DNA of 64,000 nucleotides from the NCBI GenBank assembly GCA_021732785.1, contig JAKFUG010000003.1:62001-126000 (forward strand), read 5' to 3'. This DNA is from Planctomycetaceae bacterium. GTDB lineage: Bacteria; Planctomycetota; Planctomycetia; Planctomycetales; Planctomycetaceae. Shown piece by piece: positions 26,644 through 32,843 of the stretch. The notes below the pieces were generated by a model. The model made no database searches. It was not told where the DNA came from and saw nothing but the letters and a program-made list of their open reading frames with translations. How positions within the stretch are numbered: the first letter of the stretch is position 1; each line of letters begins with the position of its first letter. The position numbers were made by a program, and so were the translations under genes.

Positions 26644-27861
26644 ATGGGTTCTGTCACACGACGTTCCTTTCTGCAAACCGCGGCGGCCACCACTCTCGCG
26701 GCGGGATACACGGCCACGGCCCGCGGGTATGCGGCGAATGAGACCATCAGCGTTGGCTGCATCGGCACGGGCGGGCGGTGTCGCAAGCTGATGGAATCGC
26801 TGAACGGTCTCAAAGGGGCGAAGGTCGTCGCCGTGTGCGACATCTGGGACCAGCATCTCGCCGATGGCAAGAAACTCGCCGATCCCAATGCCTTCGCCAC
26901 GAAAGAGTACGAACGGCTGCTCGAACGGAAAGATATTGATGCGGTCATCATCGGCACGCCGGACCATTGGCATGTGCCGTTGACCATCGCGGCGTGCGCG
27001 GCGGGGAAAGATGTCTATGTCGAAAAACCATTGACGCATGACCTCAGCGAAGGGGCGGCGGTCATCGATGCGCAGAACAAACACAAGCGCATCGTGCAGG
27101 TCGGCACGCAACAGCGGAGCATGACGCACCTCATCGAAGCCCGCGAGCTGATCCAGTCCGGAGCGCTGGGAAAGATCGTCAAAATTCATCTCACGTGGAA
27201 CCGCAATCAGGACCGCATCCGCGTCACGAAGTTCGGCGTCGATCCGAAAACCGTCGACTGGAAGCGGTTCCTCGGCAATGCGAAGGACCAGCCGTTCGAT
27301 GAGTTTCGCTTCCGTCAATGGCGGTGGTTCTGGGACTTCGGCGGCGGCATCTTCACCGACCTGATGGTTCACTGGATCGATGTCGCCCATTGGTTTCTCG
27401 ATCTCGATCACCCCACGGTCGCCACCAGCATCGGCGACTGGCTGATGGCGAAGGACATCTGGGAAACGCCGGACTCCGTGCAGACGCTGCTGCAATATCC
27501 CGAGCACAACCTGCAGGCGTACTTCGAGGGGACCTTCAGCAACGCCCGTAACGGAGCCATGCTGGAACTGATGGGCAGCGAAGGCACACTCTACGTCGAC
27601 CGCGGCCGGTACGAAGTCATCCCCGAGCGGAACAAGCGGCTGCAACCGAAGGAACGGATCATGGGCACGCTGCACAAAGGGGCGGATTTCTCGGACATCC
27701 CCGACGGCGAAGCCCTGCACCTCGCCAACTGGCTGGAGTGCATCCGCACCCGCAAGACGCCGAACTCTCCCGCCGAATCCGGCGTCAGCAGCGCCTCCGC
27801 CGCCCACATGGCGAATCTCGCACTGCGATCCGGACAAGTGACGAAATGGCCGGGGAAGTAG
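26644..27861 (+). CDS. Gfo/Idh/MocA-family oxidoreductase, TAT-exported
   Basis: 405 residues. The N-terminus VTRRSFLQTAAATTLAAGYT is a twin-arginine signal, common for this family in planctomycetes. Mature part: a Rossmann fold beginning ISVGCIGTGGRC, VVAVCDIWD, IGTPDHWHVPLT, then the catalytic EKPLTHDLSE. The C-terminal alpha/beta domain contains FWDFGGGIFTDLMVHWIDVAHW. The family oxidises or rearranges sugars and cyclitols with NAD(P); folded export with bound cofactor explains the TAT route. The substrate is unknown. It is divergent from the secreted 625-residue protein. Confidence 0.9.
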   Translation: MGSVTRRSFLQTAAATTLAAGYTATARGYAANETISVGCIGTGGRCRKLMESLNGLKGAKVVAVCDIWDQHLADGKKLADPNAFATKEYERLLERKDIDAVIIGTPDHWHVPLTIAACAAGKDVYVEKPLTHDLSEGAAVIDAQNKHKRIVQVGTQQRSMTHLIEARELIQSGALGKIVKIHLTWNRNQDRIRVTKFGVDPKTVDWKRFLGNAKDQPFDEFRFRQWRWFWDFGGGIFTDLMVHWIDVAHWFLDLDHPTVATSIGDWLMAKDIWETPDSVQTLLQYPEHNLQAYFEGTFSNARNGAMLELMGSEGTLYVDRGRYEVIPERNKRLQPKERIMGTLHKGADFSDIPDGEALHLANWLECIRTRKTPNSPAESGVSSASAAHMANLALRSGQVTKWPGK

Positions 27862-27877
27862 GTGCTAAAAGAAGGTC

Positions 27878-27971
27878 GTGCCACTGCTTCGGAGTCTTCG
27901 CAGAAGCAGTGCCGATGGTGAACCCGGCGCTCGAAGACACTGCTTCTCCGCGGACTCCGAAGCAGTGGCAC
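27878..27971. repeat. Family C-related palindrome (GTGCCACTGCTTC...)
   Basis: Perfect 19-base arms GTGCCACTGCTTCGGAGTC (27878-27896) and its complement (27953-27971). Smaller repeats inside (CAGAAGCAGTG / CACTGCTTCT) can form a cruciform. It begins 17 bases after the oxidoreductase stop. Confidence 0.75.
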
Positions 27972-28111
27972 ATTCAAGTTGCAGGCATCGTTCAAACAGT
28001 GCCCGCCCGGGGAAGTGATTTCGCAGGGTGCGTAGCGACGCACCGATATGTCAATCTCCCTGCAAAACTACGTAAAACTATTTGGCGAGTACACGGTACT
28101 AAGGGACAACA

Positions 28112-28711
28112 ATGCCAAAAATCGCGCTGCCGAGCATTGGTAACATGGACTCACTCGGCGTGCTTTTTGTTCTGCTCCCAGGGCTTTTGACGTGTTTAAT
28201 CGTCAAAGCTCTGACTTCGCGCGAACGCAAACTTGATGCGGTCGAGGTTGTGCTTCATGCGCTCGCATACACGTTGATTGTGCATGCTATCTGGAGCTTT
28301 TTGAATTTATGGTCATGGATTCCTACTCCAGATATCGTGGGATTATCATCAATTTCAGTTTTGCTGGGCTTGACCGTTGCTACGGTCACATCGAAGGGAT
28401 TGCTATTTGACACTTTTCGGAAAATGGGATTAACAACTGAATCATCATGGCAGTCGACTTGGGAATCATCTTTCCGGCACGCCGCGCGGGAAAAAATGGA
28501 TTTTGCGGTTTTCCACCTTAAAGATGGACGGCGAGTAATGGGTGATGTTCGCGGGTACTCGGCCGAGCAATTGAATGGACATATCGTACTGGATCAAGTC
28601 AAATGGCTGTCAGCCGCCGGGGATCCCGTGGAAATGGATGGCATGCTCGTGCTTTGTGCGAGCGATGTCACTTTCGTTCAGTTTCTCTCAAGCAAGAAGG
28701 TATCGAAATGA
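28112..28711 (+). CDS. DUF6338-like membrane protein
   Basis: 199 residues. Three hydrophobic helices (about residues 15-33, 46-66 and 75-93) are followed by a cytosolic domain with AVFHLKDGRRVMGDVRGYSA and a late SDVTFVQF strand, matching the DUF6338 pattern as I recall it. The coding sequence is AT-richer than the surroundings (28261-28320 counts to 42% G+C), pointing to acquisition. Its stop overlaps the start of a polyproline microprotein (ATGA). Function unknown; DUF6338 genes are often seen with short proline-rich partners. Confidence 0.6.
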   Translation: MPKIALPSIGNMDSLGVLFVLLPGLLTCLIVKALTSRERKLDAVEVVLHALAYTLIVHAIWSFLNLWSWIPTPDIVGLSSISVLLGLTVATVTSKGLLFDTFRKMGLTTESSWQSTWESSFRHAAREKMDFAVFHLKDGRRVMGDVRGYSAEQLNGHIVLDQVKWLSAAGDPVEMDGMLVLCASDVTFVQFLSSKKVSK

Positions 28712-28851
28712 CAAACCAGAACATCCCTTCAACTCCGCCTACTGGCCCAGAACATGCACGAGGCGGTTGGAAACCACCATCCAAGAATCCGGCACCACCA
28801 CCGCCTCCACCGCCACCTCCGCCCCCACCTGCACCGACAAAGAAGGAATAG
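28708..28851 (+). CDS. 47-residue polyproline microprotein
   Basis: Starts in the stop codon of the DUF6338 gene. The protein is MTNQNIPSTPPTGPEHARGG, then GWKPPSKNPA, a run of about a dozen prolines, and the tail APTKKE. The translational overlap and the GWKP-type motif before the polyproline run argue that it is a real gene. A polyproline stretch of this length would need EF-P for translation. Likely a flexible partner or tether for the membrane protein; no enzymatic function is suggested. Confidence 0.6.
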   Translation: MTNQNIPSTPPTGPEHARGGWKPPSKNPAPPPPPPPPPPPPAPTKKE

Positions 28852-28897
28852 CTTTGGGGCGGCGTGGTGGCACTGATGGATTGCGATCTTGATTCGG

Positions 28898-28983
28898 TGT
28901 GCCACTGGCTCTGCCAGTGTCTTTCTTGTGGTGTGTCCGCCCGAGCCCCTTCAATGCAAGACACTGGCAGAGCCAGTGGCACA
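28898..28983. repeat. Family C palindrome, copy 1 (TGTGCCACTGGC...)
   Basis: Perfect long arms starting TGTGCCACTGGCTCTGCCAG and their complement at the right end, with about 34 bases between. Each arm is itself a hairpin (CTGGC.CT.GCCAG). A near copy is at 32761-32843. Confidence 0.8.
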
Positions 28984-29159
28984 CAAAGAGATTCACGTAC
29001 CGCGATGGCTTCCAATAGTTCAAGAGCATCGATTGAGACGACGCGGAAAGATTACATTCCCGCAATGAATGCGTGAGCGCGGCGGCGTGCGGTGGGATGC
29101 GGGGGTAGAATCCGCTCAGTTTTCACCCCCCCCCATTTCTGTTTGCAAGGGCTGCAAAG

Positions 29160-29267
29160 ATGCTTCCGGACTGGCTTACGAGTTTGCTGATGTTTCTGGG
29201 TACCATTTTCGCTGCGATTTTCGAGGTGATCACGATCCTCATTGAAATCATCGTCAAGGCTTTGTGA
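29160..29267 (+). CDS. 35-residue single-helix membrane protein
   Basis: A short open frame: MLPDWLTSLLMFLGTIFAAI and then a second hydrophobic stretch to KAL. It is preceded by AAGGG eight bases before the ATG and followed 26 bases after the stop by a strong terminator. The whole length is one long hydrophobic helix with a charged end, typical of small membrane proteins. It is too short for homology by eye, so the call rests on ribosome-binding site, codon make-up and terminator. Confidence 0.45.
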   Translation: MLPDWLTSLLMFLGTIFAAIFEVITILIEIIVKAL

Positions 29268-29292
29268 GCCATCGTTGCGAACGTTCGCTCTA

Positions 29293-29336
29293 TCAAAAAA
29301 CACGGGCGAGCCAAAATGCTCGCCCGTGTTTTTTGA
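29293..29336. terminator. Strong bidirectional terminator
   Basis: TCAAAAAACACGGGCGAGC pairs with GCTCGCCCGTGTTTTTTGA around a six-base loop, a 19-bp stem with A and T runs on either side. It separates the 35-residue gene (+) from the leftward gene ending at 29356. Confidence 0.9.
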
Positions 29337-29355
29337 TCATGAAGTCGGGCGGAAC

Positions 29356-29643
29356 TTAGCGCACGGCTTCCGCCATTTCGGACAGTTTCTCGGCGGCTTG
29401 CTGTTGGAACCGCTGGCGTTCTTCCATGCCTTCCGCGGTCCACATCAGAATCTTTTCCCGTGCTTCGGGGACGCCATTCAGCAGGGCGGCGTGCGCGGCA
29501 AGGCCGAGACTCCACACTTCCGCGACCAATGCTGTGGAGCGATTTCCCGTGAGGGCCAACCCGGCGATACCCAAGGCATACAGCCCCGCATGGTACATGA
29601 GGCATTGATCGGCCTGTTGTTCGGCGGCGTGACGTGAAATCAT
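29356..29643 (-). CDS. Hypothetical small membrane-associated protein, 95 aa
   Basis: Starts MISRHAAEQQADQCLMYHAG and has two moderately hydrophobic stretches (about residues 18-34 and 42-56), then an amphipathic charged C-terminus (MEERQRFQQQAAEKLSEMAE). It may be a peripheral or two-helix membrane protein. Phasin-like helices are a possibility, but I see no diagnostic motif. It lies 36 bases downstream of the DUF3606 gene on the same strand, so a two-gene unit is likely. Confidence 0.55.
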   Translation of the reverse strand: MISRHAAEQQADQCLMYHAGLYALGIAGLALTGNRSTALVAEVWSLGLAAHAALLNGVPEAREKILMWTAEGMEERQRFQQQAAEKLSEMAEAVR

Positions 29644-32760: not shown

Positions 32761-32843
32761 TGTGCCACTGGCTCTGCCAGTGTCTTATCAATCAAGACCT
32801 GGTGTGAATCGAAAGAGAAGACACTGGCGGAGCCAGTGGCACA
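32761..32843. repeat. Family C palindrome, copy 2
   Basis: Starts TGTGCCACTGGCTCTGCCAG and ends with the complement (one mismatch, GGCGGAGCC). It fills the gap between the VWA gene and the SGNH-like gene. The spacer differs completely from copy 1, so only the arms are conserved. Confidence 0.8.

Follow-up and report, generated by a model that had tools for sequence, protein, structure and literature searches.

Proline-rich proteins of fewer than 50 amino acids have been detected in P. stutzeri ATCC 14405, where mass spectrometry identified three of them with 44–114 spectral matches (PMC10433244). The accessible part of that report assigns SEP1, SEP2 and SEP5 to the same predicted operon as a DUF6338 gene (Pstu14405_RS12030), finds no peptide of the DUF6338 product in an analysis that did not cover membrane fractions, describes the small proteins as found only in P. 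stutzeri, which is taken to suggest the evolution of new genes, and mentions possible antimicrobial roles for proline-rich small proteins (PMC10433244). We assign these SEPs to the family described below by gene layout and composition rather than by comparison of sequences. Two other described proteins serve as points of reference: TcMscS, according to the part of the source available to us a miniature MscS that has only the membrane helices and β-domain and lacks the α/β-domain (PMC12334622), and BstA, described in the part seen of its source as an established prophage-encoded abortive-infection protein (PMC8585504). Among the matches listed in our literature search, we found nothing on the pair of DUF6338 and a proline-rich microprotein as a defence module.

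A DUF6338 gene and its overlapping microprotein gene

We analyzed a stretch of 64,000 nucleotides from a Planctomycetaceae bacterium (the window), in which a DUF6338 gene is followed by a short proline-rich ORF (Table 1). The encoded protein scores 47.8 bits against the DUF6338 profile, above the Pfam curated cut-off of 26.5, and its residues 16–195 align with profile positions 10–203 of 205. It is thus a member of the family. The microprotein start codon overlaps the TGA stop of the DUF6338 gene as ATGA at 28708, and the microprotein contains exactly 12 consecutive prolines (residues 30–41). The original prediction of a DUF6338-like, three-helix membrane protein, with a 47-residue product of about a dozen prolines starting in its stop codon, agrees with these data, the three helices being those of an AlphaFold2 model.

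Table 1. Features of the DUF6338-microprotein locus in the window
Feature	Position	Strand	Basis
Inverted repeat upstream of the pair	27878..27896 / 27953..27971		Inverted arms
Shine-Dalgarno-like AAGGGA 5' of DUF6338	28101..28106	+	Consensus match only
DUF6338 membrane protein gene, 199 aa	28112..28711 incl. stop	+	ORF; PF19865 E 1.8e-12
Three predicted membrane helices, residues 14–34, 43–67, 75–95	28151..28396	+	AlphaFold2 model
Predicted Sm/LSm-fold domain, residues 108–197	28433..28702	+	Foldseek and VIA-align matches to Sm/LSm structures
Shine-Dalgarno-like AAGAAGG, 7 nt 5' of microprotein ATG	28694..28700	+	Consensus match only
Proline-rich microprotein gene, 47 aa	28708..28851 incl. stop	+	ORF; counterparts in most DUF6338 loci
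Microprotein core motif GGWKPP	28762..28779	+	GGWNPP at the equivalent position of the closest homologous locus (L002)
12-proline run and APTKKE tail	28795..28848	+	ORF; proline-plus-basic C-termini in partners elsewhere
Inverted repeat downstream of the pair	28897..28923 / 28958..28984		Inverted arms

It had been suggested that the pair is an acquired cassette, with both genes richer in A+T than their surroundings and palindromes on either side. The compositional claim holds for the DUF6338 gene, whose G+C content is 48.5% (window, 59.6%; an equally low value is found in 0.16% of 600-bp windows). It fails for the microprotein gene, whose 59.0% G+C is ordinary for the window (third codon positions, 41.7%). 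Inverted repeats are indeed found on both sides, but the downstream one belongs to an interspersed repeat, for which the genome contains 201 matches at up to two mismatches (104 forward and 97 reverse; control pattern, 0), and which in the window forms converging pairs ∼60 bp apart at 28897–28984 and 32764–32840. It therefore holds no information on a cassette boundary, and we ruled it out as a cassette end. The upstream repeat has no second copy within the 64,000-nucleotide window. Mobility of the pair is supported by the composition of the DUF6338 gene and by the plasmid carriage and prophage positions reported below, not by the palindromes.

No defence genes are recognizable among the window neighbours of the pair, a search of the window against Rfam gave no match, and no sigma-70-like promoter was found at 27800–29400. 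In an empty-site comparison with five relatives, the upstream flanking gene had no match at E 1e-80; the downstream flanking gene was matched at this threshold in two of the five, and the single region examined (G002) has nothing else in common with the window. Farther downstream lies a very hydrophobic 35-aa ORF (MLPDWLTSLLMFLGTIFAAIFEVITILIEIIVKAL, 29160–29267) that resembles a small membrane peptide gene and has a terminator-like inverted repeat 3' of it (29292–29337). The DUF6338 protein of the closest homologous locus shares 51% sequence identity with that of the window, and its microprotein reads GGWNPPAKSP where ours has GGWKPPSKNP. Another close relative (L003/L009 in G008; two pieces, 50–52%) has a shortened DUF6338 protein of 133 residues and no recognizable microprotein.

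The AlphaFold2 model of the window protein, calculated from a 34-sequence alignment (pLDDT 85.9), contains the three membrane helices, further helices and six strands. The best 50 rows of a Foldseek search with this model come from snRNP and spliceosome structures, Sm/LSm proteins of archaea and, in one case, a Gemin6/7/8 complex (best E 1.2e-05), and VIA-align matches the model to 1i8f_B with a Z score of 9.8 (r.m.s.d. is 2.2, comparing 72 residues). A second AlphaFold model, of the distant member L139 (pLDDT 78.5), returned the same kind of Sm/LSm rows (best E 2.4e-04; Z 9.1, r.m.s.d. 2.1, 72 residues). The models thus predict that DUF6338 consists of three transmembrane helices and a further domain that very probably adopts the Sm/LSm fold. 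No LSm family is found among the Pfam matches of the window protein up to E 1, and an hmmsearch of the DUF6338 profile against PDB sequences returned no Sm chain up to E 10. By the positive-inside rule, applied to the loop that joins helices 1 and 2 (SRERKLD), the Sm-fold domain probably faces the cytoplasm, a side that the signal-less microproteins would share. We also considered a relationship to MscS channels. No MscS entry is among the best 50 rows of either fold search, rows that are filled by the Sm-like domain; the best MscS-type sequence match, YnaI, aligns over profile residues 41–101 at a non-significant E of 0.12; and the window protein ends after the β-domain, without the canonical C-terminal α/β-domain of MscS. 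The likeness to MscS is architectural.

Pairing and sequence motifs of the microproteins

DUF6338 is found above the cut-off in 13/392 genomes of the window's phylum, in 8/369 from a class-level sample centred on a Stenotrophomonas genome and in 3/247 from a phylum-level sample centred on a Desulfobacterales genome. Members were located by Pfam-based genome searches and with alignments of other members; single-protein searches with the window DUF6338 returned nothing in genome contigs, plasmids or phages, searches with L014 and L056 yielded no phage record, and a viral scan with the window protein and its closest homologue found nothing. We surveyed 89 DUF6338 loci. At 80% identity these fall into 72 clusters, of which 70 could be evaluated once L093 (no complete ORF) and L090 (contig end) had been dropped. 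As partners we counted ORFs of 25–115 aa that start between −180 and +350 of the DUF6338 stop and contain at least four prolines and, towards the C-terminus, PP and a basic residue. By this rule 58 of the 70 clusters have a partner, and six more were recognized by eye: L069, L072 (overlapping), L081, L095 (continuing into a dusA-like frame), L115 and L121 (degraded). The remaining six (L082, L083, L084, L092, L113 and L117) have no recognized partner. The microprotein frame is thus conserved in homologous loci, as expected if DUF6338 is constantly paired with a very small proline-rich protein, as had been proposed.

In L113 (4659–4901) and L117 (3' of 4504), from Rhodanobacter and Dyella, the gene after DUF6338 encodes another conserved protein, ∼60 aa in length (MLEQDRRYGNAPLLLPRSSRG...), which may have replaced the usual partner. 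In L095 (9540–10781), the stop-less microprotein frame runs on into a 413-aa frame resembling tRNA-dihydrouridine synthase, which may reflect fusion or decay.

In G+C-rich DNA, chance frames rich in proline occur often, and downstream of 838 control genes (other genes of at least 150 aa from the same loci) we find the tail alone in 59 cases and the core motif alone in 202, so that the microprotein might itself be a chance open reading frame. Core and tail in one ORF occur at 45/75 DUF6338 loci versus 10/838 controls, a comparison that applies one scoring function to both groups of loci, which are not de-replicated, with start windows of −180 to +350 (DUF6338) or −120 to +350 (controls), and that leaves out 3 of the 78 DUF6338 loci (two at an end, one without an ORF). 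The motif rules behind these counts were fixed after inspection of the first loci, and the tail rule differs slightly between the 58/70 and 45/75 counts. Ten microprotein comparisons gave dN/dS values of 0.04–0.29 in six cases and 0.94 in one (three amino-acid differences), with three undefined; the microproteins are under purifying selection. Together with the peptides detected from the P. stutzeri operon (PMC10433244), these data make a chance frame exceedingly improbable, and we regard the pairing of DUF6338 with a microprotein as real and general, with virtual certainty.

Two broad motif classes can be distinguished. One half of the DUF6338 tree consists for the most part of loci from proteobacterial plasmids and viral contigs, joined by two from actinobacterial plasmids and a few from planctomycetes. 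Most partners there contain between one and four GYxP motifs, GYQP being the usual form, and have PPPKKP or a variant of it as their C-terminal end. The other half, which includes the window, has GGWxPP, GxNxPP or NPP cores, often with a longer proline run before K/R. Partner genes can be arranged in tandem, with up to four copies (L124 and L129). Across 84 distinct partners, the C-terminal positions −4 and −5 are proline in 64 and 73 cases, and positions −2 and −3 are lysine in 53 and 54. The GYxP class requires 4 changes on the DUF6338 tree compared with a shuffled mean of 20.2 (0/500 shuffles as low), and the proline-run class 11 compared with 16.6 (2/500), with class labels assigned by rule and a weakly supported midpoint root (48/78). 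Motif class thus tracks the DUF6338 tree, which indicates stable co-inheritance and does not itself show binding, since the same agreement would also arise by co-inheritance alone.

The 84 partners have a median net charge of +4, and none of them contains a hydrophobic stretch of 17 residues; they are soluble, basic proteins that are probably disordered. Being small, proline-rich and cationic, and arranged in tandem with variable N-termini, they could be secreted antimicrobial or signalling peptides, with DUF6338 as their transporter or immunity protein, and the P. stutzeri authors raise antimicrobial roles for proline-rich small proteins in the part of their report seen here (PMC10433244). 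We consider this unlikely: the conserved part of the partners is the C-terminus, their N-termini do not form a conserved leader or signal peptide, no transporter, protease or modifying enzyme recurs beside the pair in the loci listed, and the three P. stutzeri products were detected in proteomics of cells (PMC10433244). Another reading sees the ORF as a regulatory peptide that stalls translation through its proline run. Long proline runs need EF-P, and the window microprotein has 12 prolines in succession. The long run is, however, confined to part of the family, many partners having just PP or PPP, the conserved GYxP motifs lie away from it, and the ORF is located downstream of the membrane gene rather than upstream of a regulated gene. 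As three stable products were in addition detected in P. stutzeri (PMC10433244), we give a stalling peptide hardly any credence.

Pfam, NCBIfam and PADLOC models gave no match for the microproteins tested, and the small ORF is missing from the gene table of a Paludisphaera plasmid, a table that is incomplete by design. The survey suggests that the microproteins are not species-specific and constitute an old, fast-changing family beyond the reach of ordinary similarity searches. An annotated membrane family of unknown function is thereby joined to microproteins that are readily overlooked in gene tables and by similarity searches.

Mobile, phage and chromosomal contexts

The pair is found on plasmids and as prophage cargo. 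We examined 15 of 19 plasmid matches. In a Mesorhizobium plasmid (L109), DUF6338 follows a nucleotidyltransferase and a SLATT gene, which PADLOC assigns to a CBASS cyclase (5.8e-125) and a SLATT 2TM effector (1.7e-61). DUF6338 lies beside TIR and caspase genes in Proteus and Curtobacterium plasmids (L112 and L115) and after E1/JAB-type genes in an Acinetobacter plasmid (L114), and the examined stretches of six plasmids (L108, L113, L116, L117, L120 and L122) contain no recognized defence or toxin-antitoxin gene. PADLOC models matched seven of ten hand-chosen neighbours strongly and one weakly (L110), with no match for two (L098 and the L114 metallohydrolase), a set that has no plasmid control. 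Besides the L109 cyclase and E1/JAB in L114, the strong matches are IetS (9.6e-26) and IetA (4.3e-68) in L036, a type IIG restriction-modification gene (7.8e-69) in L080, PifA (5e-70) in L133 and, upstream of the window's closest homologue, PDC-S27 (7.4e-215) in L069. Five DUF6338 proteins and three microproteins gave 0 matches in PADLOC-DB 2023.

In 8 of the 19 provirus loci listed, the pair is flanked on either side by frames of the opposite strand, neighbours being the longest frames. DNA similarity locates it in 2 of 5,426 E. coli genomes, in a prophage between an SNF2/DEAD helicase gene and a VRR-NUC gene; 155 genomes match some part of this prophage stretch. The prophage cassette of E. 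coli BCE049 consists of DUF6338 and a partner of 86 aa. We selected five other occupants of the slot by hand from 30 rows, one BstA case because it was so labelled. By PADLOC, two of the five encode BstA (1.4e-115; L276 and L278), one PDC-S42 (6.1e-40), one a weak match to a TIR effector and one none. Cytosine methyltransferases and Rha/Arc-type genes are found in further rows matching the prophage stretch. A TIR gene (PDC-S35, 7.6e-109) is located near the cargo slot in L274 (10600–11361), and TIR genes are annotated there in L275, L277 and L280.

Phages also encode proteins with the partner motifs but no DUF6338. We scanned viral contigs for the DNA pattern of the PPPKKP end and obtained 117 loci with 119 PPPKKP-ending ORFs of up to 110 aa. 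All of the 36 ORFs that follow a DUF6338 gene contain G[YFW]xP. Among the 83 that are not preceded by DUF6338, 66 lack this motif, 14 have a literal GYQP, one has GYSP, and two have no room upstream, one of these (L256) being a known partner separated from its DUF6338. The loci of the 14 GYQP orphans extend 600 bases or more upstream of the ORF, and this stretch contains no DUF6338. Orphan designs include cysteine-rich proteins (L152, L186, L190 and L221), proteins with MASQGFKNPNQF... (L159, L184 and L240) and proteins with a hydrophobic N-terminal stretch (L176 and L195). By eye, some orphans lie near lysis or terminase genes in the loci examined; an unannotated 42-aa orphan ORF precedes the lysozyme gene of Aeromonas phage 4_D05, and Providencia phage PSTCR8lys encodes a 47-aa protein with GYRP and an SPPKKP end. 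The orphans possibly mimic the microprotein, or they could serve a shared host receptor other than DUF6338. Three viral-contig proteins (L218, L249 and L153) combine repeated RNPPPP or polyproline segments with a PPPKKP end, L218 and L249 having GYQP as well, and look like mixtures of both partner motif classes.

As a two-gene mobile module, the pair might alternatively be a toxin-antitoxin system for plasmid or prophage maintenance, with DUF6338 as the membrane toxin, the microproteins as antitoxins and no dedicated defence role; to our knowledge, arrays of up to four partners and phage orphans would be unusual for such a system. The good detection of the small proteins in P. stutzeri next to the lack of a DUF6338 peptide would fit this reading, in a study that did not cover membrane fractions (PMC10433244). 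On balance, we find a maintenance system rather unlikely.

The chromosomal contexts of the pair are mixed. In a sample of 32 chromosome or contig loci taken regardless of their neighbours, 15 are preceded within 600 bp by a frame of 130 aa or more on the same strand; some of the remaining loci lie at contig ends. Three of these 15 neighbours are defence-like (L069, L070 and L080). PADLOC gave no match at 1e-5 for 10, and the two dnaK-like genes (L083 and L084) lay outside the scan. Judged by eye, neighbours other than the defence-like three resemble housekeeping genes such as infB, mdh, pyruvate dehydrogenase, argG and dnaK. In L094 (8859–9422), DUF6338 and its microprotein lie between infB-like and rbfA-like genes in what looks by eye like a translation operon. 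In two genomes (L083 and L084), a divergent DUF6338 without microprotein is located between dnaK-like and clpB-like genes, again judged by eye.

DUF6338 might be a membrane-anchored Sm/LSm protein that functions in RNA or stress physiology and for which the microproteins act as adaptors, the defence neighbours coming only from shared mobile elements. The modelled Sm/LSm fold favours this alternative, as do the operons that appear housekeeping-like by eye, to which a copy in a pyruvate dehydrogenase-like operon (L081) may be added (infB–rbfA in L094; dnaK–clpB in L083 and L084, without partner). The patchy distribution of the family, unlike that of housekeeping genes, together with its prophage and plasmid carriage, the E. 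coli slot in common with BstA and the phage-borne motif proteins, speaks against it, and we accord it a minor, though not negligible, probability.

Possible role and comparison with known systems

In our view, the explanation that best fits these observations, with about an even chance of being right, is that the two genes form one mobile module, an accessory phage-defence membrane system regulated by its microproteins. Its components differ in strength. Direct binding of the microproteins to DUF6338 is likely, and a role in phage defence, for which plasmid and prophage contexts argue, is slightly favoured, whereas a channel held in check by the microproteins is a tentative model. We infer ring formation and mimicry in the same way.

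The system might work as follows. The microproteins would present docking motifs (one to four G-aromatic-x-P motifs, or GGWKPP in the window), variable linkers and a conserved proline-plus-basic tail. Motif and tail may bind the Sm-fold domain, perhaps in several subunits of a ring at once, and this binding could either assemble DUF6338 or hold it in check. Infection would disturb the complex, and DUF6338, laid out much like a minimal MscS-type channel of helices and a β-domain, may damage the membrane, with abortive infection or exclusion as the outcome. Phage GYQP...PPPKKP proteins that come without DUF6338 would be mimics that bind or block it. This full version, an immune module in which a membrane Sm-fold protein, perhaps a ring channel, is controlled by disordered, multivalent motif microproteins whose GYQP...PPPKKP pattern phages copy, is a possibility that we put forward with reserve. 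If it were true, the motif itself would be a molecular battleground. Should the proposed role hold, prokaryotic immunity would gain a membrane Sm-fold effector controlled by short motifs, and phage mimics could be predicted from a simple sequence signature.

Five described systems can be compared with the pair. The P. stutzeri operon has the same order, a DUF6338 gene and then several proline-rich proteins of fewer than 50 aa seen by mass spectrometry, but the sections seen of that report describe no shared motifs, fold or mobile context (PMC10433244). The archaeal Sm heptamer (1i8f) and other Sm/LSm proteins share the C-terminal helix and barrel fold predicted for DUF6338, whose domain, unlike theirs, is fused behind three membrane helices and has no Pfam LSm match. 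MscS-type channels, TcMscS in particular, resemble DUF6338 in that membrane helices precede a small β-domain (predicted for DUF6338), the α/β-domain being absent from both TcMscS and DUF6338, but there is no significant sequence match (YnaI, E 0.12), and MscS is not known to us to have such microproteins. BstA occupies the same E. coli prophage slot as the pair, but a shared position is not a shared function, and BstA is one larger protein that, as far as we know, has neither membrane helices nor microproteins. The two-helix effectors of SLATT/CBASS systems are likewise small membrane proteins of defence loci, and L109 holds a SLATT gene together with DUF6338; DUF6338 nevertheless belongs to a different family, is not matched by PADLOC and brings its own microproteins.
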